Of a stretch of 47,447 bases of DNA, positions 3,133 through 47,447 are shown piece after piece (within the stretch, counting starts at the first letter, position 1; each line of letters starts with the position of its first letter). Both the position numbers and the translations under genes were made by a program. This stretch comes from a virus, in IMG/VR virus record IMGVR_UViG_3300003635_000006, positions 1 to 47,447 of that record, one strand, 5' to 3'. The notes under the pieces were generated by a model. The model searched no databases, was not told where the DNA came from, and saw only the letters and a list, made by a program, of their open reading frames with translations.

Positions 3133-3157
3133 AACTATCTGATCGTCGATACACTTC

Positions 3158-3171
3158 GACCTTCGAAGGTC
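3158..3171. terminator. 14-bp perfect palindrome GACCTTCGAAGGTC
   Basis: A perfect palindrome begins 26 bases after the hub gene's stop. The 12 bases CTTCGAAGGTCC recur at 3224-3235. It could be a terminator or processing hairpin for the tail transcript, or a dimeric protein-binding site. No T-run follows, so terminator is only one option. Confidence 0.4.
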
Positions 3172-3391
3172 CAGAATTGATCCGGATTCTAAGGCCGCTG
3201 ATGGCGTCGCACAGCCGGCGCATCTTCGAAGGTCCCAAACCCTTTACCGGACCCATAGTTCGGAAACGGCATTTCTCACGGCTGAAGTGCTTGAGAACAG
3301 CCGCGTTAGCGATTATGCGATAGGATAATAATTCAGGCCACGCTGGCGCGGAAGGATGCGTGTATCATGTTTCTGGTATGTGAAAAACCAA

Positions 3392-3441
3392 CCCGATCAG
3401 AAGATCGGGTTCGCCTGGCGGGGCGGTCGGCGGAAGCCGAC
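3392..3441 (+). promoter_or_regulatory. Degenerate copy of the repeated structured element
   Basis: A 7-bp hairpin CCCGATC/GATCGGG (3392-3409) is followed by CCTGGCGGGGCGGTCGG, the core shared with the six early-region elements, and then a perfect hairpin GTCGGC-GGAA-GCCGAC (3426-3441). It lacks the TCCGACAT loop, so the pseudoknot of the full copies becomes a simple hairpin here. No gene follows at the usual distance. Confidence 0.5.
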
Positions 3442-3646
3442 TGATGCGATGTCGCGGACGAACGATGGGTCGTCCGGCGGCGGAAGACCGCAGTCGAACC
3501 CAGGCGATGCTGGCGTAAATTACCATCGGACGCCCCCGCGCCGCCCGCGTGAGAAAGGCCAAACACGTCATACACATATAAACGACTTCGCGCTTCGACG
3601 GCCATACCCCGCCCCCGTACAGCGTTTTCGCCCGCGCTTCAGACGC

Positions 3647-3662
3647 ACTTAGCATATAAAGG
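3647..3662. promoter_or_regulatory. Candidate TATA-box promoter, control region
   Basis: GCATATAAAGGGGCC stands out in a G+C-rich surrounding, and another CATATAAACG lies at about 3573. Read on + it would start a transcript near 3680; read on - (TTTATATG) it would drive the other strand. No convincing gene follows in either direction, so a non-coding transcript is possible. Confidence 0.35.
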
Positions 3663-3761
3663 GGCCCGACAATACGGCCACCTGCGGACCACGCCGATCA
3701 CCCTACCCCCGCCCCGTCATGCGATTATACCTTCGAAGCCTTTATGTCCCTGGGGACGTAT

Positions 3762-3780
3762 GTTTCGCTTACAGCGAAAC
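3762..3780. repeat. Perfect 8-bp stem, 3-nt loop hairpin
   Basis: GTTTCGCT and AGCGAAAC are separated by TAC. It lies just after TATA-like stretches (TTATACC at about 3725, CTTTATG at about 3739), so it would be near the 5' end of any transcript starting there. It may be an operator or an RNA stem. Confidence 0.5.
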
Positions 3781-3833
3781 ACAGACGAAAGTTGTCAGCC
3801 CCCCCAGGCCCGGAGGGCCACAATATCCGGGCG

Positions 3834-3886
3834 GTGTCACCTGGCGGGGCGTCGCGGCGAACGAAGTCCGCGAATCTGGGTGACAC
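3834..3886 (+). ncRNA. Nested inverted repeats, candidate structured RNA
   Basis: The outer arms GTGTCACC (3834-3841) and GGTGACAC (3879-3886) enclose the inner arms TCGCGG (3852-3857) and CCGCGA (3868-3873). The left flank also contains CCTGGCGGGGC, the core word of the repeated early elements. Two nested perfect stems within 53 bases suggest a folded RNA or a protein-binding cruciform. There is no direct evidence of transcription. Confidence 0.35.
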
Positions 3887-4363
3887 GCTCTTTCCGGACG
3901 CCCCCGGACATCCTGGCCGCGACACGCGGTCGACCTGTCTGCCGCCCGCGCTTCGACCCAGCAGAACGGTCGGACGTGGGACGCACCGAAACCGTCCAGG
4001 GGATCGACCCAGCGACCTGGATGACCGCCGACGCGACACGGCCGCCCCCAGCGGCCCGACGTGGATGACGGCGACAGCAGGGGAACTTCTTCTGGACGGG
4101 GTTCGGGCTTCACGGTGTCACAGCCTACTGGCCCACAGATGCGCGGACCGACGGCAGGGGTTCGCATCTGGGTGTACGCGACACGGACGCTGACTGTCCG
4201 ATCACCGCAGGTTAGTCTGCCGGCCGCAGTTTCTGGTAAGACCTACTGATGACGGCCGGGGTGGTAAGGGATCGGGCGACCCAGCGACGTGTCGCACTTG
4301 GCCGGACGGGTCCCGCTGTCCGGAACTGATGACTGGTCGATCCTGCCTGAACTAAGACGTATT

Positions 4364-4440
4364 CCGTCTAACCGCCCGGATGATCACCTGATCAGCCTGG
4401 CGGGGCGGTCGGCCCGCGCCTGGCCGACATCGCAGGCGCA
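4364..4440 (+). promoter_or_regulatory. Structured pseudoknot element, copy 1
   Basis: It starts with CCGTCTAACCGCC, then an inner hairpin (GATCA/TGATC), then GGCGGGGCGGTCGG. After a 3-base linker comes the stem GCGCCTG/CAGGCGC (4416-4439), whose loop contains CCGACAT. Loop CCGAC is complementary to GTCGG just upstream, giving an H-type pseudoknot. The third hairpin of the other copies is absent. It ends 9 bases before the ATG at 4450. Confidence 0.75.
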
Positions 4441-4449
4441 GGTACACCC

Positions 4450-5028
4450 ATGATCGTTTCTGCCGCAGTCCACGACGACCTGATCGAACAGTTCCTGAAC
4501 CGCGTCGAACAGCATCCGGATGTCGAAAGCGCCTTCCAGAAGTCCGGACGGAAGGTCCACGTCATCCTGTCGAAGAACGATGACGGCGGCGTCGCCACGC
4601 CCTGGTCTGACTGGGACGACACCGAACTGGTCGACGGCCGCTGGCACAGCGATGACTTCATCGTCAGCCGCGTCGGCGGCGGCGGCCACCGGCCCGGTTC
4701 TGGATACGTCCGCGTGATCGGCATCAGCGCGTACTGCGATGTCTGTGGCGACGCGCCCCAGTCGAACGACCACGGTCTGTGTGGGTCCTGTAAGGTCCAG
4801 CGCGGCCTGCTGACGGGGCCGGCCGGATCGAAGGCCATCATCCAGGCTGTCCACGACGACGACAGCCGCGGGACGATCACCGACCCTGGACAGTTGTTCG
4901 AAGCCACGGCCGACGACGACGGCGTCCTTCGCGCCGACCTGGAATACGGGGATGACACCCGCGAACAGGTCCCGCTGAACGGCGACGCCCACAGCATCGT
5001 CCGCTGGGTCGACAGGGGCGACGACTGA
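4450..5028 (+). CDS. Early protein with treble-clef-like zinc motif, function unknown
   Basis: This 192-aa acidic protein is the first gene after the control region and the first preceded by a pseudoknot element. Residues about 98-115 hold CDVCG...GLCGSC, four Cys that can bind one zinc. The N-terminal part (VHDDLIEQFLNRVEQHPDVESAF) is helical. I do not recognise a family. Its final base overlaps the next ATG (TGATG), so the two genes are co-translated. Being first in the early region, it could be a regulator or host-interaction factor (inference). Confidence 0.75.
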   Translation: MIVSAAVHDDLIEQFLNRVEQHPDVESAFQKSGRKVHVILSKNDDGGVATPWSDWDDTELVDGRWHSDDFIVSRVGGGGHRPGSGYVRVIGISAYCDVCGDAPQSNDHGLCGSCKVQRGLLTGPAGSKAIIQAVHDDDSRGTITDPGQLFEATADDDGVLRADLEYGDDTREQVPLNGDAHSIVRWVDRGDD

Positions 5029-5198
5029 TGGGCTTCGTTCCTGATCGGGAACCTGGTCGGACGGCCGACCGGGTCGACGACGGGACCAGCGTGGCGACGC
5101 TGGGAATCCCGGCCCACGTCCCGACGCGAACGCCGGCCACGGACGACGGGTCCGACCGGCCGGTCCCGGCCCACGTCGATCCTGCTGACGACGACTGA
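5028..5198 (+). CDS. Small acidic protein, unknown
   Basis: This 56-aa ORF (MGFVPDREPG...HVDPADDD) starts on the last base of the preceding stop. Its length, acidic tail and GAA-only Glu codons match neighbouring genes. No domain is recognised. A hairpin GACGGG/CCCGTC overlaps its stop. Confidence 0.6.
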   Translation: MGFVPDREPGRTADRVDDGTSVATLGIPAHVPTRTPATDDGSDRPVPAHVDPADDD

Positions 5199-5213
5199 CG
5201 GGCGTAACCCGTC
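5197..5213. terminator. Hairpin at gene end
   Basis: GACGGG-CGTAA-CCCGTC forms a 6-bp stem overlapping the stop of the 56-aa gene, directly before structured element copy 2. There is no T-tract; it may be a terminator or part of the element's fold. Confidence 0.35.
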
Positions 5214-5214
5214 G

Positions 5215-5323
5215 CCGTCTAACCGCCTGGACGGGTCCGGTCCCGGACTTAGCCTGGCGGGGCGGTCGGCCCGACGCTGTCCGACATCAGCGTCCGTCAG
5301 CCACGCCCACGACAACGGCGTGG
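5215..5323 (+). promoter_or_regulatory. Structured pseudoknot element, copy 2
   Basis: It runs CCGTCTAACCGCC, inner hairpin GTCCGG/CCGGAC, GGCGGGGCGGTCGG, linker CCC, then stem GACGCTG/CAGCGTC (5273-5294) around the loop TCCGACAT. A third hairpin CCACGCC/GGCGTGG (5301-5323) has the loop CACGACAAC. Compared with other copies, all three stems change on both sides while loops and linker length stay fixed. The ATG of the Spo11-like gene is 13 bases later. Confidence 0.8.
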
Positions 5324-5335
5324 ACCTTCGAAGCC

Positions 5336-6616
5336 ATGACTGAATACGAACGCGAACCCCCGGCGACGCTGGCCGAAATGCAAAGCATGACCACCGACGA
5401 CTTCCACGGCGTCGACCGCTACCACTACCAGGGTAGCCTGTCGAAGAAGCGCGTCATCGAACACCTGGTCGAACTGGCCAGCGCCGAACTGTCCTGGCAG
5501 GGCCGCGAAGACGCTGGGTCCCTGCGCGACTTCTGGTACAATCCGGTGAAGTCGATCCTGGAAGCCGCCTTCCCTGACTGGGGCGACGGCGCAGGATCGT
5601 CCGACTGGAACCGGAACATGACGAAGCGCCTGTCCGGCGTCGTGTCTGAAAAAGTGAAGGAAGGGTCGATGACGTACCGCGACCTGAACATCCTGGACGA
5701 CAGCCGCGACCGGCGCATCGCCACGGACAGCATCGAAAACGACAAAATCCTGTTCGTGGAAAAGTCGGCGGCGTACCGGAAACTGAAGCCGCTGGCTGAA
5801 GTGTACGACATCACCCTGGTCGAAGGGTCCGGATGGCAGGCCACGGCCCTGATTGAAGACCTGGTCCAGCAGTTGGACACGTCCCAGACGTACACGTTCT
5901 GGGTTCTGGGTGACTTCGACCCGACCGGCTTCGGGATCGTCGAAGACTTCGTCGCACGGGCGAACCAGATGGGGCTGTCAGTCGACCGCGACGCGTCCCG
6001 CCGGATCGGCATCTGGCCCCGGCAGGTCGACGACGATATCCTTCAGGCGCAGAAGTTCACGCCTGCGTCGAACGGATCGGACGACGACTGGTTCCGTGAT
6101 CACGCCATCGACGGGAAGTACGGGCTGGAAATCGAAGCCGTCGGCGCGTCCCTGGAAGGGAAGGCCGAAGCCCTGCGCGAACTGGTCGTCGAAGAAATCA
6201 AAGACGACATCGACGCCGACGAACGGCGGTACAAAGACACCCAGCAGTCGGCCGCGAACGTCCCTGGACACGCGACGAACCGCGTGGTCAGCGACATCAC
6301 GGACGACCTGGAAGATGCCCTGCTGGAAGCCGCCTGCGACATATACGAAGACATCGACGGCGTCCAGAAGTGCGAACCGCTGGACTTCATGACTGGCGCA
6401 TCCGTCAGCCTGGACCGCGACATGGTCCTGAACGGCGGCGTCGACGGCGACTGGGTCCCCGACCCCTACCCGTCGTCCCGCCTTCACAGCGGCGCTGTGT
6501 CGGGTAACGAACCGAACGCCGAAGGTGGCCGGACGGCGAAGCGGAAGATGAAGGGCGAACTGAAGGATCGGATCAGGAACGGCGACATCGACGTTCAGGA
6601 ACTGCTGGACATCTGA
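5336..6616 (+). CDS. TopoVI-A/Spo11-like Toprim protein (Mini-A type), without a B subunit
   Basis: In this 426-aa protein, residues 62-70 read SLRDFWYNP, matching the winged-helix motif of Topo VI A/Spo11 in which Tyr (here Y68) attacks DNA. A Toprim domain follows, with ILFVEK (E142) and GDFDPTG (D193, D195), the acidic residues that bind Mg. This is the order found in Spo11, TopoVIA and the lone Mini-A proteins of mobile elements. No GHKL ATPase partner is encoded here, so it is unlikely to be a complete topoisomerase. It may cut DNA for replication, recombination or host takeover, or recruit a host partner (inference). It has its own pseudoknot leader and ends in a hairpin that includes its stop codon. 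The basic C-terminal tail (TAKRKMKGELKDRIR) may bind DNA. Confidence 0.8.
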   Translation: MTEYEREPPATLAEMQSMTTDDFHGVDRYHYQGSLSKKRVIEHLVELASAELSWQGREDAGSLRDFWYNPVKSILEAAFPDWGDGAGSSDWNRNMTKRLSGVVSEKVKEGSMTYRDLNILDDSRDRRIATDSIENDKILFVEKSAAYRKLKPLAEVYDITLVEGSGWQATALIEDLVQQLDTSQTYTFWVLGDFDPTGFGIVEDFVARANQMGLSVDRDASRRIGIWPRQVDDDILQAQKFTPASNGSDDDWFRDHAIDGKYGLEIEAVGASLEGKAEALRELVVEEIKDDIDADERRYKDTQQSAANVPGHATNRVVSDITDDLEDALLEAACDIYEDIDGVQKCEPLDFMTGASVSLDRDMVLNGGVDGDWVPDPYPSSRLHSGAVSGNEPNAEGGRTAKRKMKGELKDRIRNGDIDVQELLDI

Positions 6617-6624
6617 TCCAGCAG
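6602..6624. terminator. 8-bp hairpin enclosing the stop codon of the Spo11-like gene
   Basis: CTGCTGGA and TCCAGCAG flank a 7-base loop that contains the TGA stop. The stem includes the last codons, so translation would melt it. It may terminate or stabilise the mRNA end ahead of element copy 3. Confidence 0.45.
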
Positions 6625-6631
6625 TCCCCCG

Positions 6632-6731
6632 CCGTCTAACCGCCTGGACGGCCCGCTGTGGGCCAGCCTGGCGGGGCGGTCGGCATCATCCCGTCCGACA
6701 TCGGGATGCGTCAGCGCCCGCGACAGCCGGC
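6632..6731 (+). promoter_or_regulatory. Structured pseudoknot element, copy 3
   Basis: It runs CCGTCTAACCGCC, inner hairpin GGCCC/GGGCC, GGCGGGGCGGTCGG, linker CAT, then stem CATCCCG/CGGGATG (6687-6708) around the loop TCCGACAT. The third hairpin is GCGCC/GGCGC. The stem sequence differs from copies 1, 2 and 4-6 with full pairing preserved. GTGATC, a possible ribosome-binding site, lies between the last hairpin and the ATG at 6743. Confidence 0.8.
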
Positions 6732-6742
6732 GCGTGATCGAT

Positions 6743-6988
6743 ATGACGACCCGAATCAGTAACCTGCGAACCTTCCTTCGGAAGCGTCCGCAGACGGCCG
6801 TGAAGACACAGCCACAGACGACCGGCGCGACGGTCTGGTACGCCTGGGACGACGACCAGGATCAGGTCGTGGCGTCGATCAACGGCGACACGTTCGACAT
6901 CGACCGCGACCGGGCGATGGCGAACATGGACCATCCAGACGTGACCACCGAACGCCACGACATCAGCGAATCACCCTTCGACGAATGA
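6743..6988 (+). CDS. Small protein with basic N-terminus, unknown
   Basis: This 81-aa protein (MTTRISNLRTFLRKRPQ...) is the first gene after element copy 3. The ATG at 6743 is chosen over an in-frame GTG at 6734 because the same distance from the last hairpin to ATG is kept in copy 5. The N-terminus is basic and the C-terminus acidic (VWYAWDDDQDQVVASINGD). No family is recognised. Its stop overlaps the next start (ATGA). Confidence 0.65.
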   Translation: MTTRISNLRTFLRKRPQTAVKTQPQTTGATVWYAWDDDQDQVVASINGDTFDIDRDRAMANMDHPDVTTERHDISESPFDE

Positions 6989-7116
6989 CCAGCGAACTGA
7001 ATGGCATCACGACCGGACGAACTGACCAGGACGGGTCCGCAGGGATCGGCTTCGACGCCCGCCGCGTCCTGAACCAGCGACAGCAGACCACCGACGACAC
7101 CCAGACCCATGACTGA
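6985..7116 (+). CDS. Small 43-aa protein, unknown
   Basis: MTSELNGITT...TTDDTQTHD fits exactly between two genes by an ATGA overlap at its start and an ATGACTGA overlap at its end. Such coupling supports it as a true gene despite its size. No function is visible. Confidence 0.55.
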   Translation: MTSELNGITTGRTDQDGSAGIGFDARRVLNQRQQTTDDTQTHD

Positions 7117-7606
7117 CGACACCGACATCACCGACTGGAAGGGCGACATCGAACGCTTCGAAACGACCGACCGCTACGGCGCGACGTGGGCGGTCTTCAG
7201 CCACGTCCCGGATCAGACGCCCCAGACGCGCTTCGACGGCTGGGTGATCGACTTCTGTAACGGCGACCGGCTGACGGGCGAACCGGCGAACGAAATCGCC
7301 CGCCGGCTGATGAACGCGGGCGACACCGACGGCTTCGAAGCCACCTTCGACCGCGACTTCCCGACGTTCGGCCGGGCGTCCGACCCGATGCTGGACAGCG
7401 TCGTGTACGATGACGATGGCCGGGCCTACCGGATCACCGTCCGGGGCGTCCGCGTCTGGTTCGAACACGCCGACCAGCAGGGTGACGACATCATCCTGTA
7501 CGACGGCGACCAGGATCGGGCGGGGATGATCGAAGACGCGCCGTTCGACCTGCCGGAACTGCGCGGCGAAATGGACCTGGCGCGACGGAAGGCCATCAAC
7601 GGATGA
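7109..7606 (+). CDS. Acidic early protein, unknown
   Basis: This 165-aa protein has a mixed alpha/beta pattern (ATWAVFSHVPD, FDGWVIDFCNG, YRITVRGVRVWFEHAD). It starts at the ATGACTGA overlap and ends with an ATGA overlap into the next gene. There are no recognised motifs. It belongs to the small operon begun by element copy 3. Confidence 0.75.
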   Translation: MTDDTDITDWKGDIERFETTDRYGATWAVFSHVPDQTPQTRFDGWVIDFCNGDRLTGEPANEIARRLMNAGDTDGFEATFDRDFPTFGRASDPMLDSVVYDDDGRAYRITVRGVRVWFEHADQQGDDIILYDGDQDRAGMIEDAPFDLPELRGEMDLARRKAING

Positions 7607-7980
7607 CGACCGCATCCTTCGACCTGTCCGGCGACGTTCGAAGTACCGTCCCCATCGGGGCCGTGACCGGCGTCGACCACGACGGCCACCTGTCCGAAGA
7701 CTTCGACGCGTGGCGAACGGCCACCTACGCGACCACGGACACCCTGGACCGACACGTCCACGACCTGCGTCCAGACGCGCCGATCAATACGAACATCCGA
7801 TGCGCCTGCGGCTGGCGCGGCGTCGAACTGCTGGACGATCCTGACCACCCGCCCGATCCGGATCGGTACGGGAACCGCCGATCCCGATGCCGCTGTCCGG
7901 ACTGCGGCGACACGGCGACGCTGATCACGGGCGGCCCGGAACCGCCGTCCATCGACGCCGACTGGGACCTGGTCGACTGA
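7603..7980 (+). CDS. Zinc-ribbon protein, unknown
   Basis: In this 125-aa protein, CACGW at residues about 67-71 and CRCPDCG at about 96-102 give the Cys pairs of a zinc ribbon. The segment between them is Asp/Pro-rich. It is the last gene before element copy 4 and overlaps the previous gene by four bases. It may bind nucleic acid or protein; no family is recognised. Confidence 0.75.
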   Translation: MTTASFDLSGDVRSTVPIGAVTGVDHDGHLSEDFDAWRTATYATTDTLDRHVHDLRPDAPINTNIRCACGWRGVELLDDPDHPPDPDRYGNRRSRCRCPDCGDTATLITGGPEPPSIDADWDLVD

Positions 7981-7995
7981 CCATCGGCCAGCCCA

Positions 7996-8099
7996 CCGTC
8001 TAACCGCCCTGCTGGCCGCAGACAGCGCCAGCATGGCGGGGCGGTCGGTTTGGATGCGTCCGACATCGCATCCCGTCAGCGCCCGCGACAGCCGGCGTA
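7996..8099 (+). promoter_or_regulatory. Structured pseudoknot element, copy 4
   Basis: It runs CCGTCTAACCGCC, inner hairpin TGCTGGC/GCCAGCA with a 10-base loop, GGCGGGGCGGTCGG, linker TTT, then stem GGATGCG/CGCATCC (8052-8073) around the loop TCCGACAT, and a third hairpin GCGCC/GGCGT whose closing pair is a G-U wobble. It precedes the longest early operon (8111-10681). Confidence 0.8.
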
Positions 8100-8110
8100 C
8101 AAGTGAAGCC

Positions 8111-8476
8111 ATGTCAGCCCACGAAACGAAGTCCGTCACCTGCCACGCTGACTTGGGTGACGGCGATGTCTGCGACGCTGAACTGACCTTCGAAGACCAC
8201 GCGACGTTCGTCCAGTCGCCCCGTGGCGAAGATCGACACGGGAACGACGTTCGGGACCGCTTCGAATCCAGCGCCATCCGGTTCGACTGTCCGGACTGCG
8301 GCGCTTCGAAGTGGGTCTGTCCAGTCTGTACGGATCACCTGCTGGAAGACCCGCCCGACCACGCGACGGCGACGCCCGGCTGGTTCGTCGGGGAATCCAC
8401 GGGCGACCGCATCGCCTGCCACAACTGTAACCAGGCCGAATCGGCCCGACAGATGCGCCAGGGCCGGGGGTTTTGA
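8111..8476 (+). CDS. Multi-zinc-finger early protein, unknown
   Basis: In this 121-aa protein, Cys pairs CPDC and CPVC lie at about 60-73, with CHNC near 105 and further Cys near the N-terminus (TCHADLG...VCDAEL), enough for two zinc sites. The start at 8111 is chosen because it lies 12-15 bases after the element's last hairpin, as in other copies. It overlaps the next gene by one base. A nucleic-acid-binding or adaptor role is likely but not provable. Confidence 0.75.
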   Translation: MSAHETKSVTCHADLGDGDVCDAELTFEDHATFVQSPRGEDRHGNDVRDRFESSAIRFDCPDCGASKWVCPVCTDHLLEDPPDHATATPGWFVGESTGDRIACHNCNQAESARQMRQGRGF

Positions 8477-8736
8477 TGACGCTGACGCCCGCGGACCTGT
8501 CCGACGGCCAGCGCGTCAGCCTGTCGAAGTACCTGAAGTCGCCCGTCCAGGTGGTCCAGAAGACGATCACCGCGGACGGCCCGTTCGTGATCGTCGAATC
8601 AACTGGCGGATCACGCTACCGCATCCGGGCCGTCGACGACGATGACGACCGGATGCTGATGGAAAAACCGGACGGCGACGGCTGGGAACCCTTCATCCGA
8701 CTGGACCTGACGACCACGACCCTGAACCATGACTGA
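8476..8736 (+). CDS. Small beta-rich protein, unknown
   Basis: This 86-aa protein starts on the last base of the previous stop (TGATG). The pattern DLSDGQRVSLSKYL...GPFVIVESTGGSRYRIRAV suggests a small beta barrel, perhaps SH3- or KOW-like (inference). It ends ...TTTLNHD, overlapping the next start by ATGACTGA. Confidence 0.7.
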   Translation: MTLTPADLSDGQRVSLSKYLKSPVQVVQKTITADGPFVIVESTGGSRYRIRAVDDDDDRMLMEKPDGDGWEPFIRLDLTTTTLNHD

Positions 8737-9106
8737 CGACACCGACGACACGACCGACGACAGCATCGATGACGACGAACACGTCCGCGACCTGTTCAGC
8801 CTGGACGATGGCGACGAAGTCACCCTGACGATGGCCGACGGATCGACCGTCGACGCCACGTTCGAAGGGAAGTCTGAACATCACGACGAATCAGGGCCGA
8901 ACATCGTCCATCAGACGACCGTGACGTTCGAACGGGACGACGGCGCATCCCTGTCCGCAGGGATCACAGACGGCCTGTCAGGCATCCCGGATTCCGATCC
9001 CTTCCCGTCATTCTTCCCGCTTCACGTCACCGACAACGTCGAACCCGGCCGGCAGGTCCCAGATGAAGACGTGATCGGCTTCGTCCACGAAGTCGAACAG
9101 CGATGA
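8729..9106 (+). CDS. Very acidic early protein, unknown
   Basis: This 125-aa protein begins MTDDTDDTTDDSIDDDEH. It then shows a beta-rich stretch (GDEVTLTMADGSTVDATFEG) compatible with a small barrel and resembling the preceding gene's fold pattern. It overlaps both neighbours. No recognised family. Confidence 0.7.
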   Translation: MTDDTDDTTDDSIDDDEHVRDLFSLDDGDEVTLTMADGSTVDATFEGKSEHHDESGPNIVHQTTVTFERDDGASLSAGITDGLSGIPDSDPFPSFFPLHVTDNVEPGRQVPDEDVIGFVHEVEQR

Positions 9107-9612
9107 TCGGACCGACATCACCTGGCGACATCGACGACCCAGTCGCGCAGTCGATCAGAAACGAACAGCGCCGTGATGCCGCCCCATCGGCCGCTGAAGC
9201 CCGCGAAGATCATCGACGACACCTGGCCAGCGAAGGCTGTGAAGTCTGCGACTGCGACGACCCTGACCGCCTGGAAGTCGTCCAGTACGAACGCTTCCAC
9301 GGCTGTCCGAACGGACAGCATCCAGACGACCCGTTCGACCGGACGATCCTATGCGACGAACACCGCCGGCCTGCTGGCGTCTTCGAACGCGCCAGGATGG
9401 TCCAGGATGGCCGGAACAGCCTGGCCGACTTCCTGGTCCGGTACGACTGCGGAAACGTCGTGTCCCTGGAACGCCCGGACCCTGATCCGGACGACTTCCC
9501 TGGACCGCATACGCCGCGCCCGGAACCGGCAGAAGGCCCGCTGACCTGTCCGGCCCGCGGCCGCTGTGACGCTGTGATCGTCGAAGTGATCCCGGCCGAC
9601 ACGCCGGACTGA
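9103..9612 (+). CDS. HNH-like zinc-binding protein, putative
   Basis: This 169-aa protein has CEVCDC (about 46-51), then LEVVQYERFHGCPNG, then LCDEH (about 84-88). This order, a Cys pair, a His-containing beta strand and a second Cys/His pair, resembles a beta-beta-alpha-metal (HNH) fold, although the catalytic His-Asn-His is not clearly intact. A further pair, CPARGRC, lies near the C-terminus. It may be a nuclease relative or simply a zinc-binding adaptor. The gene overlaps both neighbours. Confidence 0.6.
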   Translation: MIGPTSPGDIDDPVAQSIRNEQRRDAAPSAAEAREDHRRHLASEGCEVCDCDDPDRLEVVQYERFHGCPNGQHPDDPFDRTILCDEHRRPAGVFERARMVQDGRNSLADFLVRYDCGNVVSLERPDPDPDDFPGPHTPRPEPAEGPLTCPARGRCDAVIVEVIPADTPD

Positions 9613-9800
9613 TGGCCCGATCACGGTACGACGACCGAACCGACTTCTGGCGCGACATCGTCATCGTCACCTTCCACCCGATGTTCGAAGGCCAGTCGAT
9701 GACCGACGCGCTGGGGGACCTGTACGAACTGCGACGCGAACGCGACACCCGAAACCATGACAGACACGAAATCCGACGACACGACCGACGAACAGACTGA
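9612..9800 (+). CDS. Small basic protein, unknown
   Basis: This 62-aa ORF starts at a TGATG overlap and overlaps the next gene by 44 bases. The sequence MARSRYDDRTDFWRDIVIVTFHPMF...HDRHEIRRHDRRTD has a basic tail. The long overlap lowers confidence; the early stop placement and coupled start raise it. Confidence 0.5.
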   Translation: MARSRYDDRTDFWRDIVIVTFHPMFEGQSMTDALGDLYELRRERDTRNHDRHEIRRHDRRTD

Positions 9801-10020
9801 ACCGACCGACACCGTCGAACGCTTCGACACGGGCGCATCCGCGGAAGCGACCCTGAAACGCGGGACTGGGACCCGCGACGAAGACAAAATCAAACTGAAG
9901 GGGAAGGGCCGGAACGCGCAGGAAGCCATCGACGAATTCGAAGAACTGCTGGCGAAGTACGAAGACGACTGGGGCGACCGGATGCGGGCGATGGACCCGG
10001 ACGGTGATCGGGATGACTGA
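9757..10020 (+). CDS. Small acidic protein, unknown
   Basis: In this 87-aa protein the first 30 residues are Asp/Thr/Glu-rich and disordered. The rest, KIKLKGKGRNAQEAIDEFEELLAKYED, begins with a short basic strand followed by an amphipathic helix. It ends ...DGDRDD with GGTGATCGGG as ribosome-binding site for the next gene. Confidence 0.65.
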   Translation: MTDTKSDDTTDEQTEPTDTVERFDTGASAEATLKRGTGTRDEDKIKLKGKGRNAQEAIDEFEELLAKYEDDWGDRMRAMDPDGDRDD

Positions 10021-10204
10021 TACCGAACCCCGCGCCCCTGTCGCCTGCGACGACTGCGGAACCGTCCGCGACAGCGCCATCGTCGGCGGCTGTCCGAACT
10101 GCGACACCCGCGAACGGATCGAAGCCCTGACGACACGCGTCGAAGACCTGTTCGACATCGTCGACCGCATCCAGGCGACGATCCAGGGGGACACCGATGA
10201 CTAA
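10013..10204 (+). CDS. Small zinc-ribbon plus coiled-coil protein
   Basis: In this 63-aa protein CDDCG and CPNCD (about 12-30) form a rubredoxin-like zinc ribbon. The C-terminal half (RIEALTTRVEDLFDIVDRIQ) is a heptad-patterned helix that may dimerise. The ATG at 10013 is chosen over an upstream GTG (10004) because GGTGATC lies directly upstream and the ATGACTGA overlap matches other junctions. Confidence 0.7.
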   Translation: MTDTEPRAPVACDDCGTVRDSAIVGGCPNCDTRERIEALTTRVEDLFDIVDRIQATIQGDTDD

Positions 10205-10532
10205 CCTGACACGCTTCCAGTTGGACCTGCTGATCGACATCGCTGGCCACCCAGACACCCACGGCCTGGCCATCAAAGAGCGGCTGGAAGACCACTACGG
10301 CCATGACATCAATCACGGGCGGCTGTACCCGAACCTGGACAGCCTGGCCGAACAGGGCCTGATCACGAAGGGGACCCACGACGAACGGACAAACAAATAC
10401 GCGCTGAACCGGCGCGGGAAGCGCGAACTGGAAGACCGCTTCGCCTTCTTCAAACACAACGTCGAACGGACTCACGAAATCGTCGACAGGAAGGGCGACG
10501 CCGTCGCCTTCGTCCCGGACGGTGGGCGATAA
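10197..10532 (+). CDS. PadR-family winged-helix transcriptional regulator
   Basis: In this 111-aa protein residues 1-80 read LTRFQLDLLIDIAGHPDTHG...IKERLEDHYG...HGRLYPNLDSLAEQGLITKG...YALNRRGKREL, the PadR pattern of winged-helix DNA-binding proteins, common in haloarchaea and their viruses. The C-terminal helix probably dimerises. It lies inside the longest early operon and likely controls early-to-late switching or its own operon (inference). It contains one of the very rare GAG codons of this genome (near 10278). Confidence 0.88.
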   Translation: MTNLTRFQLDLLIDIAGHPDTHGLAIKERLEDHYGHDINHGRLYPNLDSLAEQGLITKGTHDERTNKYALNRRGKRELEDRFAFFKHNVERTHEIVDRKGDAVAFVPDGGR

Positions 10533-10555
10533 CCGACCAGACCGCCCTGCGGCTG

Positions 10556-10681
10556 ATGGGTGACGACGGCCGGCATACGGCCGTGACGATCACCGACATC
10601 GGGGACGACGGCTTCCACGACCAACTGGTCGACCTGATCGAAGACTGCTATGACTGCGACGACGTGATCATCGAACGCTGA
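10556..10681 (+). CDS. 41-aa acidic peptide, putative
   Basis: MGDDGRHTAV...LIEDCYDCDDVIIER fills the gap between the PadR gene and element copy 5. Codon use matches real genes (GAC, ATC, GTC, CTG). A CYDC pair is present. There is no clear ribosome-binding site and no overlap with the PadR stop, so it is tentative. Confidence 0.4.
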   Translation: MGDDGRHTAVTITDIGDDGFHDQLVDLIEDCYDCDDVIIER

Positions 10682-10698
10682 CGGTGATCACCCCCCTT

Positions 10699-10802
10699 CC
10701 GTCTAACCGCCCTGCTGGCCGCAGACAGCGCCAGCATGGCGGGGCGGTCGGTCTGGATGCGTCCGACATCGCATCCCGTCAGCGCCCGCGACAGCCGGCG
10801 CG
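10699..10802 (+). promoter_or_regulatory. Structured pseudoknot element, copy 5
   Basis: It is almost identical to copy 4: inner hairpin TGCTGGC/GCCAGCA, GGCGGGGCGGTCGG, linker TCT, stem GGATGCG/CGCATCC (10755-10776) around TCCGACAT, third hairpin GCGCC/GGCGC. GTGATC then lies 4 bases before the ATG at 10811, the same arrangement as copy 3. Confidence 0.8.
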
Positions 10803-10810
10803 TGATCGAA

Positions 10811-10909
10811 ATGACGAACGAACACCGACGACGGCGTCTTCAGCAGATGTTCATCATCCGCCGAAGACAGCGCCGTCGACACGACGAAGACGACCAGAAC
10901 GATGGCTGA
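10811..10909 (+). CDS. 32-aa arginine-rich peptide
   Basis: MTNEHRRRRLQQMF...RRRQRRRHDEDDQNDG has ten Arg in 32 residues, very unlike the acidic proteins around it. It is placed exactly where the first gene after each pseudoknot element starts, is preceded by GTGATC, and overlaps the next gene's ATG. It could be an RNA-binding peptide or a translated leader. Coding status rests on position only. Confidence 0.5.
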   Translation: MTNEHRRRRLQQMFIIRRRQRRRHDEDDQNDG

Positions 10910-11921
10910 ACGAACCCTTTCGAACGACGAACGTGGCTGTGGCCACCTGAAAAGAGACAAAGCGTACATCCGCGGCGTGATCGGATCACCCGATGGCGTC
11001 CTGCCGTCCTTCACGACCGCCGAACCCTTCGTGAAGTTCCGCGAACACGGGCTGGACGGCGGCTTCACGCGGGGCTTCCAGCGGTTCGACGGGCTGACCG
11101 CGCAGTTAGCCTTCGAAGACATCGCTGACTTCATCCCGCACTACCCAGGCGAATCCACCGACGCCGAAGCCGTGGAAAACCTGGTCAAAGCCGGGGTGTA
11201 CGACGACGAAGACGCCGTCCCGGACATCCAGACCCAGCGTCACGTCGACCGCATCCGGTCGATGGACACCGACGGGGATCACTTCGGGGAAGTCGGGGCG
11301 CCCCGCCAGTCCGACCTGCTGATGCGGGCCGGGAAGACGCATTACCCTGACCCGCAGGACTTCATCGACGAAGCCATCGAACGCGGGATCAGCAAAGCCA
11401 TCCCGCTGTCCCAGCGCCAGGAACCGCCCGTGGTCGAACCGGGCGTCACCCGATGCTGGATCGTCCATCCCGACACCGACCGCGGATGGGCCGTCATCGG
11501 GTACGCCTACCTTCAGGAAGTCGTCTATACCGAACCCGCGGACGGCGCAGTCCCGCAGTACGTCCAGGAATACGCCGCCGCTGACCGCCTGGACATCGTC
11601 GACATCGAACCCGCACCCGACGCCGACGATCAGGGACCAGACGCCCAACTGGACCAGTTCGACGAATACCCTGACGACGACGCCGACGGCGGGGACACCG
11701 TCGTCCCGGCAGAAGGCGGTTCAGGCGACGTTCAGCAGTTGTCGAACGCGCTTCAGGATGCATTCAGTTACAACGAACTGAAACGCATCTGCGCCGCCGC
11801 TGACGATGTCGATGTCGGCGCACGACCATCGGAAGAACACATGGCCGACGCGCTGGAACTGGCCGGGATCACGCTGGCGAACGCCCGCGCCCTGCTGGAC
11901 CAGGGTGATCAGGATGACTGA
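10902..11921 (+). CDS. Early protein of unknown function, upstream of PCNA
   Basis: This 339-aa protein has an N-terminal domain (CGHLKRDKAYIRGVIG...GFQRFDGLTAQLAFEDIADFI), a central beta-rich part (TRCWIVHPDTDRGWAVIGYAYLQEVVY), an acidic linker, and a helical C-terminus (SYNELKRICAAADDVDVG...LELAGITLANARALLD) resembling a SAP- or HeH-like helical pair. I recognise no enzyme motif. Directly coupled to PCNA through GGTGATCAGG and an ATGACTGA overlap, it may act in viral DNA replication (inference). Confidence 0.75.
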   Translation: MAERTLSNDERGCGHLKRDKAYIRGVIGSPDGVLPSFTTAEPFVKFREHGLDGGFTRGFQRFDGLTAQLAFEDIADFIPHYPGESTDAEAVENLVKAGVYDDEDAVPDIQTQRHVDRIRSMDTDGDHFGEVGAPRQSDLLMRAGKTHYPDPQDFIDEAIERGISKAIPLSQRQEPPVVEPGVTRCWIVHPDTDRGWAVIGYAYLQEVVYTEPADGAVPQYVQEYAAADRLDIVDIEPAPDADDQGPDAQLDQFDEYPDDDADGGDTVVPAEGGSGDVQQLSNALQDAFSYNELKRICAAADDVDVGARPSEEHMADALELAGITLANARALLDQGDQDD

Positions 11922-12849
11922 CGCCGACACGGACGGGTCCGGGGACGACACGCCGGTCGAAGACACCGATGAAAAACTGCGGTTCGACGCCCCAGACGAC
12001 GCCGACGTGTCGATCCTGACCCACGGCGAACCGATCCGCGAATTCGTCCGGCTTCAGACGCCGCTGGTCGACGAAGCCCGCTGGCAGTTCACCGATGACG
12101 GGATCGTCGTCCAGGCGGTCGACCCGGCGAACGTCGGCATGATCGACCTGGACGCCTACGACGGCGGCTTCGATCAGTACCGGAAGCGAACCGACGACCT
12201 GGAAGTCGGGATGCCGCTGACGACCGGCGGGAACCTGAAGAACGCCCTGGCCTTCGCCCGGAAAGGCCGCGGATCGGACAACGGCGACCCAGTCCGGATC
12301 GACATCCTGGACCGCGGGAAGCGCGTCCGCATCGCCATCCTGCGGCCGGATCAGAACACGAAGCGCGTCAGCGAATTCTACGCCATCGACCCTGATTCGA
12401 TGCGCCAGAAGCCGGACATCCCGGACCTGAACCTGACGTATCGGGCCGCCCCAGGGATCGAACCCCTGACCGACGGCATCCGCGACCTGGATCGGTCCCA
12501 CGACCACGTCTGGTTCACCGCCATCGACCGGACGCTGGTCATCGGATCACAGCCGACGCGGAACCCGACGATGGCCGGGAACGCAGGCGCGGAATCAGTC
12601 GACACGGTCGAATTCCCGAACGCCGCCTGGTCGACGACCACCGACGACGGGGCCGTCGAACACGCCCACGGATCGATGTTCAGCGCGAACTTCCTTCGGG
12701 ACTTCACGAAGGCCATCGACGCGACGAAGATGGACCGCGTGACCCTGAAGTTCGGGGACGAATTCCCGACGATCATGGCGTTCGAACACGACGACTGGGG
12801 CTTCGACGGCCAGTATATGCTGGCCCCGCGGATCAGTAACGACGACTGA
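11914..12849 (+). CDS. pcna: PCNA, DNA sliding clamp
   Basis: This 311-aa protein has DDGIVVQAVDPANVGMIDLD and, at the end, KFGDEFPTIMAFE...QYMLAPRI, matching the first-domain strands and the C-terminal strands of archaeal PCNA. About 60 residues longer than host clamps (usually near 250 aa), with an acidic N-terminal extension of about 25 residues and inserted loops. It would form a trimeric ring that tethers polymerase and other factors. No polymerase is encoded here, so it probably recruits the host replisome. The ATG at 11914 is supported by GGTGATCAGG just upstream and the common ATGACTGA overlap. Confidence 0.9.
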   Translation: MTDADTDGSGDDTPVEDTDEKLRFDAPDDADVSILTHGEPIREFVRLQTPLVDEARWQFTDDGIVVQAVDPANVGMIDLDAYDGGFDQYRKRTDDLEVGMPLTTGGNLKNALAFARKGRGSDNGDPVRIDILDRGKRVRIAILRPDQNTKRVSEFYAIDPDSMRQKPDIPDLNLTYRAAPGIEPLTDGIRDLDRSHDHVWFTAIDRTLVIGSQPTRNPTMAGNAGAESVDTVEFPNAAWSTTTDDGAVEHAHGSMFSANFLRDFTKAIDATKMDRVTLKFGDEFPTIMAFEHDDWGFDGQYMLAPRISNDD

Positions 12850-12854
12850 CTGCG

Positions 12855-13004
12855 ATGGCCCGACCGATGCTGAACGCGGCTGGCCTGACCCTGATCGGGA
12901 TCGGCTGGTTCGCCCTGATGAACAGTTTCCTGCGTCCGTCCGATCCGTGGATGTTCCTGCTGGGGATCGTCCTGCTGATCGGCGGCGCGGTGATCCGACC
13001 ATAG
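12855..13004 (+). CDS. Small two-helix membrane protein
   Basis: In this 49-aa protein residues about 8-25 (AAGLTLIGIGWFALMNSF) and 32-48 (WMFLLGIVLLIGGAVI) are hydrophobic helices joined by a short loop. It lies five bases after the PCNA stop and before element copy 6. It is probably inserted in the host membrane; a role in host-membrane modification or lysis is possible but unproved. Confidence 0.65.
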   Translation: MARPMLNAAGLTLIGIGWFALMNSFLRPSDPWMFLLGIVLLIGGAVIRP

Positions 13005-13020
13005 GCCCCGCCAGGCCCTT

Positions 13021-13122
13021 CCGTCAGACCGCCCTGCTGGCCACGACACGGCCGGCATGGCGGGGCGGTCGGTCTGGATGCGTCCGACATCGCATCCCGT
13101 CAGCGCCCACGTCAGCCGGCGC
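13021..13122 (+). promoter_or_regulatory. Structured pseudoknot element, copy 6
   Basis: It begins CCGTCAGACCGCC. The inner stem TGCTGGCC/GGCCGGCA keeps pairing through one G-U wobble, which favours RNA over DNA as the folded form. Next come GGCGGGGCGGTCGG, linker TCT, stem GGATGCG/CGCATCC (13076-13097) around TCCGACAT, and a third hairpin GCGCC/GGCGC. The ATG at 13134 follows after about 12 bases. Confidence 0.8.
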
Positions 13123-13133
13123 AAAATCGAACC

Positions 13134-13490
13134 ATGTCCGAAGACGAAGACCCAGCGACCATCGTCGACAGCGACGCCGTCGACGTGGAAGTCGCAGACG
13201 ACCCAGACGAATCACGCCTGATCGTCACCGGACTGACCGTCAGCGCCAGCGAAAAGGCCAGCACCGGCGATTATGAGAACTACGAACCCTTCCAGCAGGT
13301 CCGCGCATCGATCAGCCCGCCCATCGACGCTTCGAACCCGGCCGGACGGGTCCGCGTCCGCCAGATGGCGATGACGCTTCACCGTGATGTCCAGGCTGAC
13401 ATCCAGCGGGCCGTCGACGCCCGCCTGTCCAGCCCCGACTTCGAAGACTGGCCGGACGGCGTCGACGCCGCCGACCTGGGGGACCGATGA
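13134..13490 (+). CDS. Early protein, unknown
   Basis: In this 118-aa protein an acidic N-terminus leads to SRLIVTGLTVSASEKASTGDYENYEPFQQVRASISPP, a beta-rich part, then a long helix (RVRQMAMTLHRDVQADIQRAVDARL). It is the first gene of the last early operon (13134-17851) and contains a rare GAG at about 13273. No family is recognised. It overlaps the next gene by four bases. Confidence 0.7.
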   Translation: MSEDEDPATIVDSDAVDVEVADDPDESRLIVTGLTVSASEKASTGDYENYEPFQQVRASISPPIDASNPAGRVRVRQMAMTLHRDVQADIQRAVDARLSSPDFEDWPDGVDAADLGDR

Positions 13491-13762
13491 CCAACTTCGA
13501 TCCCCAGAAGGTCCGCCGGGCCGACCGGGACCGCTTCACCGACGCCAGCCTGCTGAACCGGCGGGAACTACTGGCCGCGCTGTTCGAAGCGACCGACATC
13601 GACTGGGACGCTGACGACCTGCGGATGCGGGCCAGACCTGTCCGGGCCGACGACCTGCGGGCCATCCTGACCGCCATCTGGATCGACCAGCAGGACCTGG
13701 CCGAACCCGAAGAACGTGAACTGCGCGAACTGATCGACATCTGGACGACCGACGACACCTAA
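13487..13762 (+). CDS. Small helical protein, unknown
   Basis: This 91-aa protein is mostly helical (DRFTDASLLNRRELLAALFEATD, DLRAILTAIWIDQQDLAEPEERELRELIDIW). Helix-turn-helix is possible but not clear. It overlaps the previous stop by four bases. Confidence 0.7.
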   Translation: MTNFDPQKVRRADRDRFTDASLLNRRELLAALFEATDIDWDADDLRMRARPVRADDLRAILTAIWIDQQDLAEPEERELRELIDIWTTDDT

Positions 13763-13764
13763 CC

Positions 13765-14079
13765 ATGACCAAATACGCCGACGTGAAGGTCAGTCCCATC
13801 CTGCGGGACCTGGCCAAAGACATCGCAGAACAGCAGTACGGAACCGAACACCGCGCCATCAGCCGCATGGGCCACGAAGCCCTGATCACCTGGATGATCG
13901 TCCGCGCCGATGACGACATCGTCCAGTCGATCCTGTCCGACGAAGGCTTCGAAACCATCCAGGACCTGATCGACGCCGTGGCCGACGCCGACGGCGCTGA
14001 CGGCCGCTTCAGTAACGACCCGCAGTTCGATCCGATGGCCGCCATCGAAACGCCGCGAACGCTGGACACCGACGAATGA
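13765..14079 (+). CDS. Small protein, possible ribbon-helix-helix
   Basis: In this 104-aa protein the N-terminus YADVKVSPILRDLAKDIAEQQYG has one strand followed by a helix, and GHEALITWMIVRADDDIVQSILSDEGF two further helices. This could be a ribbon-helix-helix DNA-binding fold but the signature is weak. Ends with ATGA overlap into the next gene. Confidence 0.65.
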   Translation: MTKYADVKVSPILRDLAKDIAEQQYGTEHRAISRMGHEALITWMIVRADDDIVQSILSDEGFETIQDLIDAVADADGADGRFSNDPQFDPMAAIETPRTLDTDE

Positions 14080-14552
14080 GTCACTATCACAACGCCGACG
14101 GGAAGCCGCCGAAATCCGGCGAACTGCCGAACGGGAAGTCCATCGACGACATCGACGAATCAGTCCGGCCGATCATCATCGACCGACACCTGACCCGCGA
14201 ACACCTGATCACGCGGATCATCGACGCGACCGGGATCGACCGCGAACGCGGGACGAACCAGGACCTGCTGAACCACGTCGAAATGGTCCGCCTTTACCGG
14301 GACTGTACGGACGACGACCGCGACGAAGCGACCATCCTTCACGACATGGACAAAGAAGACGTGAAGGAAGCCATCGCAGACGCCTACGGCGTCGACGCCG
14401 ACATGGACATGGGCAAAGCGAAGTTCGGGAAGATGGGCCTGATCAGCCTGCTGGTAGCCATCCAGACCGACGGCGGCCAGCCCCGGACCGCCCTGCTGGA
14501 AAACCCCGGCGACAGCGACCCTGTCCCCCACCGATCAACGAACGACATCTGA
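14076..14552 (+). CDS. Early protein, unknown
   Basis: This 158-aa, mostly helical protein (TREHLITRIIDATGIDRERGTNQDLLNHVEMV, KEDVKEAIADAYGVD, GKMGLISLLVAIQ). The repeated short helices could form a DNA- or protein-binding bundle. No recognised motif. Confidence 0.7.
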   Translation: MSHYHNADGKPPKSGELPNGKSIDDIDESVRPIIIDRHLTREHLITRIIDATGIDRERGTNQDLLNHVEMVRLYRDCTDDDRDEATILHDMDKEDVKEAIADAYGVDADMDMGKAKFGKMGLISLLVAIQTDGGQPRTALLENPGDSDPVPHRSTNDI

Positions 14553-20731: not shown

Positions 20732-20931
20732 TGATCGACTGGCTTCGAAGACGACACCCGTCAGAACGGCTGACATCGATCCTGTACGGCGCGGCGGCTG
20801 GCGTGGGTCTGACGTTATGGATTCCCATCGACAGCCTGTACGTCGGCCCTGCCATCCTGCTGGCCGGCCTGACGACAGAACTGTTACGCGGCTGGGGCGA
20901 CGACCCTACTGACGACGATGTCGACACCTGA
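20731..20931 (+). CDS. Small membrane protein
   Basis: In this 66-aa protein two hydrophobic segments (SILYGAAAGVGLTLWIPI and YVGPAILLAGLTTELL) follow a basic N-terminus, so the N-terminus probably faces the cytoplasm. It overlaps TerL by 14 bases. Role unknown. Confidence 0.65.
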   Translation: MIDWLRRRHPSERLTSILYGAAAGVGLTLWIPIDSLYVGPAILLAGLTTELLRGWGDDPTDDDVDT

Positions 20932-34432: not shown

Positions 34433-35255
34433 CCTACTGCCGATCATCCGACTGATCGAACAGAACCCCGAACCGCTGGCGGGCGGCATCGTCACGGTCT
34501 TCGGGCTGATTTACCGGCGGTATATGGGCCGCCGGCTGTCGTCCCGGACGATGATGTTCCTGAAGACCTTCCTGATCCACCTGATCCGGCGCGTGATCAC
34601 CCGCGTCGATCCGGCGAAGACGAAGGCGTCCAGGAACAGGAACACGCTGGAATCCGACGGCGACCCTGAAACACGGAAGCCGCCGCAGAAGGCCGAACGA
34701 AACCGCGAAACGCTGGAATCCGACGGCGAAGCGGCGAAGTACGACGTGACGATCCATACCAGTAAGTCCCTGGCGAAGTCGCGGGGACGGACGGCTGAAC
34801 GCGTCATCGCGCAGGCCCTGGCCCGGAACCTGGACCGGGCGGGCGTCGGCTATCGCATCGCCTACGGGTTCGAACGGACGCCAGACACGTCCGAAGTCCA
34901 GACGGACGACGGCGTCGTCAGTACGGACGTTCTGAATTGGTGGAAGGACGAACCCCGCGAATACACGGCCGCAGATTCGAATCTTCTGCTGGTCGACAAT
35001 AACGGCGGCGGCTGGGGCGCACAGACTGGGAAGTTCGCCATCAGCGGCGCGAACCGGATCGACCGCTTCGTGAACATCCCGGAATCCCTGGACTGTCCGA
35101 AGACGCTGACGAACTACGGCGTGGCGAACATCCGCGCCGGCATCCACGAATTCGGCCACAACGTCGGCGGCAGTCACGACACGCCGATGCTGAACCCATC
35201 GCCGTCGATCCGGTACACCCAGGCGATGATCGACATCCTGCGCGGCGACGCCTGA
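34419..35255 (+). CDS. Membrane-anchored metzincin-motif protease, putative
   Basis: In this 278-aa protein residues about 17-50 include a hydrophobic segment (AGGIVTVFGLIYRRY) and MMFLKTFLIHLI, probably a membrane anchor. After a repeat-like basic region (two NRxTLESDG copies), the C-terminal domain ends with HEFGHNVGGSHD (243-254), an HExxHxxGxxH/D zinc site of the metzincin clan. A downstream Met-turn is plausible at TPMLNPS. It may process capsid proteins, cut host surface proteins, or act in entry. Protease activity is inferred from the motif. Confidence 0.7.
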   Translation: MIPTDLLPIIRLIEQNPEPLAGGIVTVFGLIYRRYMGRRLSSRTMMFLKTFLIHLIRRVITRVDPAKTKASRNRNTLESDGDPETRKPPQKAERNRETLESDGEAAKYDVTIHTSKSLAKSRGRTAERVIAQALARNLDRAGVGYRIAYGFERTPDTSEVQTDDGVVSTDVLNWWKDEPREYTAADSNLLLVDNNGGGWGAQTGKFAISGANRIDRFVNIPESLDCPKTLTNYGVANIRAGIHEFGHNVGGSHDTPMLNPSPSIRYTQAMIDILRGDA

Positions 35256-47181: not shown

Positions 47182-47447
47182 ATGGCTACCAGAAAATACC
47201 TGAAGGAAACGATCATCGACAGCCTGACGCGAATCACAGACGGCGCGAAAACCGTCTTCGGTGATGAAGGCGCTGACCAGGTGTCGATGCGGATCGACAC
47301 GACGCCGGACCCGTCCGCCCTGCTGATCGAAGACGAATCGAACGGGATCGTCCAGGCAAAAATCCCGATGAACACCACGCTGGCGTCGACCATCGAAAGC
47401 GGGGGTGAAAACGAAATCGACGTGTCTGGCCTGTCTGGCGACCTTTC
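47182..47447 (+). CDS. Tail fibre protein, 5' part (continues at 2-691)
   Basis: The start MATRKYLKETIIDSLTRITD is helical and probably anchors the fibre to the baseplate. The reading frame is open to the window end and continues in frame at base 2, giving 285 aa with a collar-type tip. It is intact in the circular molecule. Confidence 0.9.
   Translation, partial: MATRKYLKETIIDSLTRITDGAKTVFGDEGADQVSMRIDTTPDPSALLIEDESNGIVQAKIPMNTTLASTIESGGENEIDVSGLSGDL
47349..47447. repeat. Terminal direct repeat, right copy
   Basis: Identical to bases 1-99; see the left copy. Confidence 0.95.

Follow-up and report, generated by a model that had tools for sequence, protein, structure and literature searches.

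A repeated, covarying pseudoknot element at the head of early-gene blocks in haloarchaeal tailed viruses related to HHTV-1

Introduction

Why should a virus carry much the same structured sequence ahead of one early-gene block after another? The question is raised by the IMG/VR record IMGVR_UViG_3300003635_000006, a viral DNA of 47,447 nt that we refer to, at its full length, as the window. An initial annotation, made from the letters alone, had noted six copies of a covarying RNA element with an H-type pseudoknot in front of its early gene clusters. That description is borne out by homologues in six other viruses, with compensatory changes in the first pseudoknot stem (S1). Comparison of these sequences indicates a real, previously undescribed RNA element, which probably controls expression of early gene blocks.

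Results

Each of the six copies (W1–W6; Table 1) was recovered in the sequence. All are in the sense (+) orientation and directly 5′ of a start codon, from which their ends lie 9–12 nt away, close to the 9–14 nt given initially. W4 and W5 share 99% identity, with W6 close to both. The exact 14-mer GGCGGGGCGGTCGG occurs seven times in the window, always on the + strand, compared to 0.02 occurrences expected; the seventh belongs to a half-copy at 3417 that had been overlooked. From the 5′ start that the copies were said to share, copy 6 departs by beginning CCGTCAGACCGCC.

The predicted fold opens with two helices, stem A (CCGUC:GGCGG) and stem B (CCGCC:GGCGG), stacked around a 3-nt bulge (UAA or AGA). 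A variable hairpin caps stem B; the H-type pseudoknot comes next, and then usually a third hairpin. In the window, stem A is followed directly by S1 (UCGG), loop L1 (3 nt), stem S2 (7 bp) and an S2 loop in which CCGA closes the pseudoknot. It had been proposed that ACCGCC could also pair with the second GGCGGT, giving two alternative states. ViennaRNA minimum free energy (MFE) folds of W1, W2, W3, W4 and W6 argue against this: the second GGCGG is taken up by CCGUC (with one U-G) and the first by CCGCC, and the two helices form simultaneously and stack. Since stems A and B coexist, a two-state switch is not needed. The MFE fold of Haloarcula hispanica tailed virus 1 (HHTV-1) contains equivalent stems. 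G-U pairs are tolerated, with 16 in stem A, which suits RNA rather than duplex DNA.

Over all copies, the pseudoknot abuts stem A and has an S1 of 4–6 bp, an L1 of 1–3 nt and an S2 of 6–7 bp. The four 7-bp stems and their complements were correctly given at the outset, and the H-type fold holds throughout the window, although the near-ideal dimensions do not extend to W1, which has no separate L2 base, an L3 of 5 nt and an S1 longer by one C-G. Nor is the 3-base linker L1 constant, as had been claimed; it reads CCC, CCC, CAT, TTT, TCT and TCT in W1 to W6. A loop near RCGWNAC caps the third hairpin in both clades of the element, and the hairpin ends ∼10 nt 5′ of the start codon. It is absent in W1. 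In copy d of HHTV-1, the motif UCGAUAC is kept without a hairpin, just 5′ of the start.

S1 is invariant across the window copies, and hence covariation support for S1 comes from relatives only. The same architecture, at much the same gene positions, is found in six related viruses, which makes seven with the window. The nearest isolate is HHTV-1 (Madisaviridae, Clampvirus). Three close relatives, virus A (IMGVR 3300046026_000015), virus B (IMGVR 3300046061_000023) and virus C (IMGVR 3300021446_000180), emerged from exact pattern and protein-alignment searches; the more distant virus D (IMGVR 3300046059_000011) was reached via gene 52, and virus E (IMGVR 3300046059_000016) via the stem-B pattern. 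As a single-protein query, gene 52 gave no match among viral contigs, while alignment queries did give relatives; it gave none among genome contigs or plasmids. Megablast of the element region against phages gave no match.

HHTV-1 has four elements of this architecture in different letters. Stem A is CCG:CGG extended to 4–5 bp, the bulge is GAA (GAA or GAU in viruses D and E), stem B is UUCCACC:GGUGGAA, and the pseudoknots pair as AUCCC:GGGAU, UGGC:GCCA, UCGGC:GCCGA and CUGCC:GGCAG. Orthologous copies also differ in S1, which is GUCGGC:GCCGAC at L012:4324 (virus B) and GUCAGC:GCUGAU at L013:8664 (virus A). The letters of stems A and B are almost uniform inside each clade and switch together between clades, while S2 and the cap vary freely.

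We aligned 25 copies by segment, with every segment verified in its source, because MAFFT on whole copies loses the structural register. Among the 20 distinct pseudoknots, 75 of 80 S1 pairs form. Shuffled sets averaged 55.7 and peaked at 70, and none of 20,000 reached 75. For S2, 125 of 127 pairs form (shuffled mean 79.8, maximum 101). As the segment ends were set by hand, two further tests were run. Permuting only the loop bases gave a combined p of 5e-14, and 2e-7 for the eight copies with distinct S1. In a gapless, stems-only alignment of the 20 distinct copies from the 7 viruses, the very copies from which the fold was derived, 96.5% of stem cells are paired (65.7% when shuffled), 18 of 20 pairs show double-sided changes, and the covariation score is 0.843, compared to 0.262 for shuffled sequences and 0.09–0.16 with slid partners. 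For S1 alone the score is 0.545 (0.196 shuffled, 0.06–0.15 slid); given that the copies are related, the changes cannot be counted as independent, and the slid-partner control and the full sequence change between clades serve as guard. Homologues whose stems stop pairing had been named at the outset as counting against the element. Pairing is mostly kept. Viruses A and B depart from it in their clearly remodelled ‘b’ copies; these partly retain the A/B arm, have lost the pseudoknot and carry a new complementarity, GGCGGGGC:GCCCCGCC (L009:11300-11420; L032 minus strand near 1279).

A descriptor of pairing and spacing matched exactly six times in the window, both strands considered, and never in shuffles. 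It found four matches in 24 kb of HHTV-1, namely its four copies. For the other relatives, the stretches scanned gave three matches each in viruses A, D and E and two in virus B; one of those in virus E (3754) does not share the register of the aligned copy, and the match to W6 lies in a neighbouring register. Regions of CGphi46, HRTV-25, HGTV-1, ChaoS9 and HATV-3, which belong to other families, gave 0–2 unrelated singletons each. Because the descriptor was tuned on known copies, these counts measure specificity, not discovery. A first, looser descriptor gave many chance matches and was replaced by this stricter one. Over 84,980 bacterial and archaeal species, the clade-1 pattern had 47 matches, all bacterial and none in haloarchaea, which we take as chance; host genomes thus give no indication of the element. 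Matches in two unrelated contigs (L002 and L021) were also set aside as chance.

HRTV-25 (Hafunaviridae) carries a different repeated intergenic element, CUUCCCGAGUYUGAAA..AUGAAACCG..CGGCGGGAAG, with a variable inner hairpin, in the gaps at 8540, 16300, 17160, 18855 and 22770 (L015).

From 5028 to 14552 in the window, every inter-gene gap >12 nt holds an element, and the other genes overlap or nearly touch. The core of W2–W6 begins 15–17 nt past the upstream stop codon; with the 9–12 nt between the fold and the next start, this would leave about one ribosome's width on either side of the element. No TATA motif lies near W1–W6, and TATAAA is found on the + strand of the whole window only at 3577 and 3655, which makes a place within a long early transcript the most likely one for the copies. 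In HHTV-1, the elements precede genes 43, 45, 52 and 55. The block from gene 52 to PCNA is enclosed by copies c and d there, and likewise by W5 and W6 in the window.

Records of the seven viruses hold 2–6 copies each. Virus C has a chimeric copy (L011:6600-6686), with a 5′ flank from a (97%) and a 3′ flank from c (97%); the 3.0 kb between a and c, including the Toprim gene, have been lost (cf. L009:9706, L009:12704). The copies thus serve in addition as joints at which gene modules recombine.

Three observations concern the surroundings of the copies. The stretch 3133-4363 of the window is a 1.2-kb gap without long genes that contains the half-copy and both TATAAA boxes, together with an 8-bp hairpin, GUGUCACC:GGUGACAC around UGGCGGGGCGUCGC; a related CACCUGGCGGGGCGGACC stretch occurs at that place in viruses A–C. 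The annotated start of HHTV-1 gene 43 falls inside element a, and the real start is probably the ATG after hairpin 3, near 10151 (L014:10070-10160). HHTV-1, virus D and virus E share, 5′ of element a, a second covarying hairpin (stems ACGGGAUCGC:GCGAUCCCGU, ACUGCUGUUCGA:UCGAACGGCAGU and ACUGCUGGCUGA:UCAGUCGGCAGU) with a conserved loop AGGCAC..CACGCUUUGA and flanks CCUUAC and GUGCUACGGAAA; the sites are L014 ∼9935-9997 (HHTV-1 record ∼34934-34996), L018 ∼6755-6818 and L028 minus strand (reverse-complement position 11756).

The window itself has an exact 99-nt terminal repeat (1-99 = 47349-47447), and hence the record probably covers a tailed virus in full, as a circular assembly. Identity to HHTV-1 is 50.5% for the capsid protein and 39% for gene 52; the window TerL has no match in HHTV-1.

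Table 1. Element copies and other features of the window
Feature	Position	Strand	Description	Basis
Half-copy	3417..3430	+	Partial seventh copy, 3′ half (GGCGGGGCGGTCGG only), without the CCGUC..CCGCC arm	Sequence
TATAAA boxes	3577..3660	+	Two boxes (3577, 3655), candidate early promoters ∼700 nt 5′ of W1	Motif search
W1 core	4364..4439	+	Stem A 5′ CCGUC, bulge UAA, stem B CCGCC, variable hairpin, GGCGG-GGCGG, pseudoknot	Structural alignment by hand, pairing-only descriptor, domain 1 MFE
W1 pseudoknot (within the core)	4364..4439	+	S1 UCGGC:GCCGA, S2 GCGCCUG:CAGGCGC; start codon 10 nt downstream	
W2 core	5215..5294	+	S2 GACGCUG:CAGCGUC	Alignment, descriptor, MFE
W2 third hairpin	5301..5323	+	CCACGCC[CACGACAAC]GGCGUGG, 12 nt 5′ of ATG 5336	Sequence, MFE
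TopoVI-A-like Toprim protein	5336-6616		Early side	
W3 core	6632..6708	+	S2 CAUCCCG:CGGGAUG	Alignment, descriptor, MFE
W3 third hairpin	6714..6733	+	GCGCC[CGCGACAGCC]GGCGC	Sequence, MFE
W4 core	7996..8073	+	S2 GGAUGCG:CGCAUCC	Alignment, descriptor, MFE
W4 third hairpin	8079..8098	+		Sequence, MFE
W5 core	10699..10776	+	S2 identical to W4 S2	Alignment, descriptor
W5 third hairpin	10782..10801	+		Sequence
PCNA	11917-12849		Early side	
W6 core	13021..13097	+	Bulge AGA; variable hairpin UGCUGGCC:GGCCGGCA with U-G pair	Alignment, descriptor, MFE
W6 third hairpin	13103..13122	+	Loop CACGUCAGC	Sequence, MFE
TerL	20918-22543			
Major head protein	37205-38302			
Tail tube protein	41027-42055			

We then asked whether the element resembles any known one. 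The initial annotation knew of none, and our searches agree. Rfam 15 gave 0 matches at the gathering threshold in the whole window, and Rfam matches up to E=5 (window 4340-8120 and the HHTV-1 region) were weak and all outside the elements. The literature searched described neither a relative nor, for tailed viruses of archaea, any structured mRNA element, and ‘pseudoknot’ and ‘HHTV-1’ did not co-occur in it; Sencilo et al. 2013, the first account of the HHTV-1 genome, may mention the repeats.

The closest parallel is the gene 32 operator of T4, T2 and RB69, an H-type pseudoknot in a phage mRNA leader, with a related structure kept in a diverged phage; in 2010 the T4 operator was described as possibly the only viral pseudoknot in translational autoregulation (PMC3014915). 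In both systems the leader carries an H-type pseudoknot whose two stems are coaxial, ahead of a replication-type gene, the RNA here being deduced from DNA covariation. T4 gene 32, however, has one operator, which lies 67 nt 5′ of the start and includes an A+U-rich tract for cooperative binding, whereas here there are 2–6 GC-rich copies, ∼10 nt from the start, with a bulged hairpin in front and an archaeal host. In place of the A+U-rich tract 3′ of the pseudoknot, the copies have a GC-rich third hairpin or a short spacer, and we do not class them as T4-type gene 32 operators. The rpsO (S15) operator is a bacterial single-gene mRNA pseudoknot by the start codon that controls initiation and includes the ribosome entry site; unlike there, the start codon here lies outside the fold. 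This operator is mentioned with that of gene 32 (PMC3014915).

The class I and II intergenic repeats of HF2 are promoters, with BRE/TATA (BRE, transcription factor B recognition element) and a mapped start site inside (PMC8707807). Like the present copies, they are repeated elements between tailed-halovirus genes, but W1–W6 have a covarying RNA fold and no TATA motif nearby, and so are not of the HF2 type. Repeated stem-loops ahead of genes are also represented by the TATA-plus-inverted-repeat motif of HGTV-1 and the PeSLs of T4, which have been summarised as linked to module shuffling (PMC3950731). These are promoter-linked, unlike the element, and the HGTV-1 gaps that we inspected hold a TTAAGTA-type AT box and no such fold. 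VIPR vrRNAs are intergenic and GG-rich, with a pseudoknot in some tails and 9–16 YNNGG repeats, and occur also in archaeal viruses (PMC13142463); the six copies, by inspection, have only GGC GG GGC GG and no tandem tract.

Three further classes were rejected. In a kink-turn (L7Ae site), tandem G-A, A-G would follow the bulge; here the next pairs are C-G/C-G (clade 1) or U-A/U-A (clade 2). The archaeal bulge-helix-bulge needs a 3-nt bulge on each strand, the two separated by 4 bp, and the element has one bulge and a 5–7-bp helix. Small self-cleaving ribozymes (HDV, twister, pistol etc.) gave no Rfam match, and no invariant unpaired core runs across the clades.

Discussion

The element is almost certainly a functional RNA structure, and it very probably acts in cis on the gene block downstream. 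We consider it most likely to be a leader module of early-gene blocks in Madisaviridae-like haloarchaeal viruses, a shared control site for the translation or stability of each block, as judged from sequence comparison. Whether translation is the controlled step stands, in our estimate, at even odds.

In the mechanism that we envisage, the element would head each early-gene block within the long early transcript and act at the RNA level. One shared factor, which could be the initiating ribosome or an RNA-binding protein of virus or host, would read all copies in a genome, using the stacked rod of stems A and B and the pseudoknot beside the start codon to set de novo initiation for each block. 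Inside a block, where genes overlap, translation could proceed by termination-reinitiation, and the element would mark the need for a fresh start. It would then be an early-gene operator, probably working much as the T4 gene 32 pseudoknot does. The A/B letters, uniform within a clade and different between clades, would suit one factor that reads the A/B region and the bulge. The initial suggestion of a putative viral riboregulator or autogenous protein-binding site is plausible.

Several points weigh against this picture. The A/B uniformity within a genome could instead stem from recombination between copies, as seen in virus C. The start codon is not sequestered, which excludes a classic occlusion switch. 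No candidate regulator protein was recognised, and no single-stranded DNA-binding protein beside the copies. A TATA-like box lies ∼25 nt 5′ of stem A in copy a of viruses A–C, and some copies may simply sit at a transcript 5′ end. The remodelled ‘b’ copies of viruses A and B have no pseudoknot, and hairpin 3 is missing from some copies.

Some of these features would also fit mRNA processing or stability, an alternative that is possible though on balance unlikely. The long transcript would be cut (or would start) in the 15-nt spacer, and the fold would form a tight 5′ end that blocks 5′-to-3′ decay by archaeal RNase J / aCPSF, giving each block its own lifetime. The short distance from the upstream stop to the core in W2–W6 is in line with this, as are the U- or pyrimidine-rich bases 5′ of many copies and the TATA box of some ‘a’ copies, which would start transcripts at the first base of stem A. 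It is also mostly shape that is conserved, as in a mechanical roadblock. However, no cleavage-site sequence is conserved, the single 3-nt bulge with a 5–7-bp helix is not what the archaeal splicing endonuclease recognises as bulge-helix-bulge, and the element abuts the start codon, suggesting translation.

Less probable still is a ribosome-recruiting leader, in which the RNA would bind the small subunit or an initiation factor for internal initiation at each block, independent of the Shine–Dalgarno (SD) sequence and with no repressor. Start codons ∼10 nt downstream without a consistent SD favour such a leader, and the Haloferax work of Kramer et al. 2014 reportedly found no SD use on leadered mRNAs. 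The hairpin 3 loop RCGWNAC, common to both clades, points the same way. On the other hand, no rRNA-complementary sequence is conserved across clades (by inspection), and we know of no archaeal internal ribosome entry site. The clade pattern of stems A and B, taken together with that loop, leads us to favour control of translation initiation over processing or 5′ protection and over direct ribosome recruitment.

A DNA-level role as promoter, recombination or replication site appears very improbable. Halovirus intergenic repeats such as those of HF2 can serve as promoters (PMC8707807), and recombination between copies removed the 3.0-kb module in virus C. Yet the promoter version is largely refuted by the scarcity of TATAAA described above, neither the tolerance of G-U pairs nor the covariation of the pseudoknot has a part to play in duplex DNA, and the copies keep a single orientation and are always tied to start codons. 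A mobile or selfish repeat that has dispersed without serving the virus would account for the multiple, in part near-identical copies (W4/W5, and W6 close to them), but we give it hardly any credence, as copies diverge with compensatory changes and keep the same gene context across viruses, and no target duplications were seen.

A broader version of the leader-module proposal, which we put forward tentatively, is a family-wide archaeal-virus ‘operon header’: the repeated pseudoknot may define a post-transcriptional regulon of early blocks, with a single co-evolving factor, and double as a recombination joint for block gain and loss. If the translational reading is true, the element would be a second viral pseudoknot case after T4 gene 32, repeated through the early region. 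It is held across viruses whose capsid proteins are ∼50% identical, and it occurs in the isolate HHTV-1, whose host, Haloarcula hispanica, can be grown in the laboratory. This makes two questions directly testable: how translation starts on leadered haloarchaeal mRNAs without SD, and how the timing of halovirus early genes is set.

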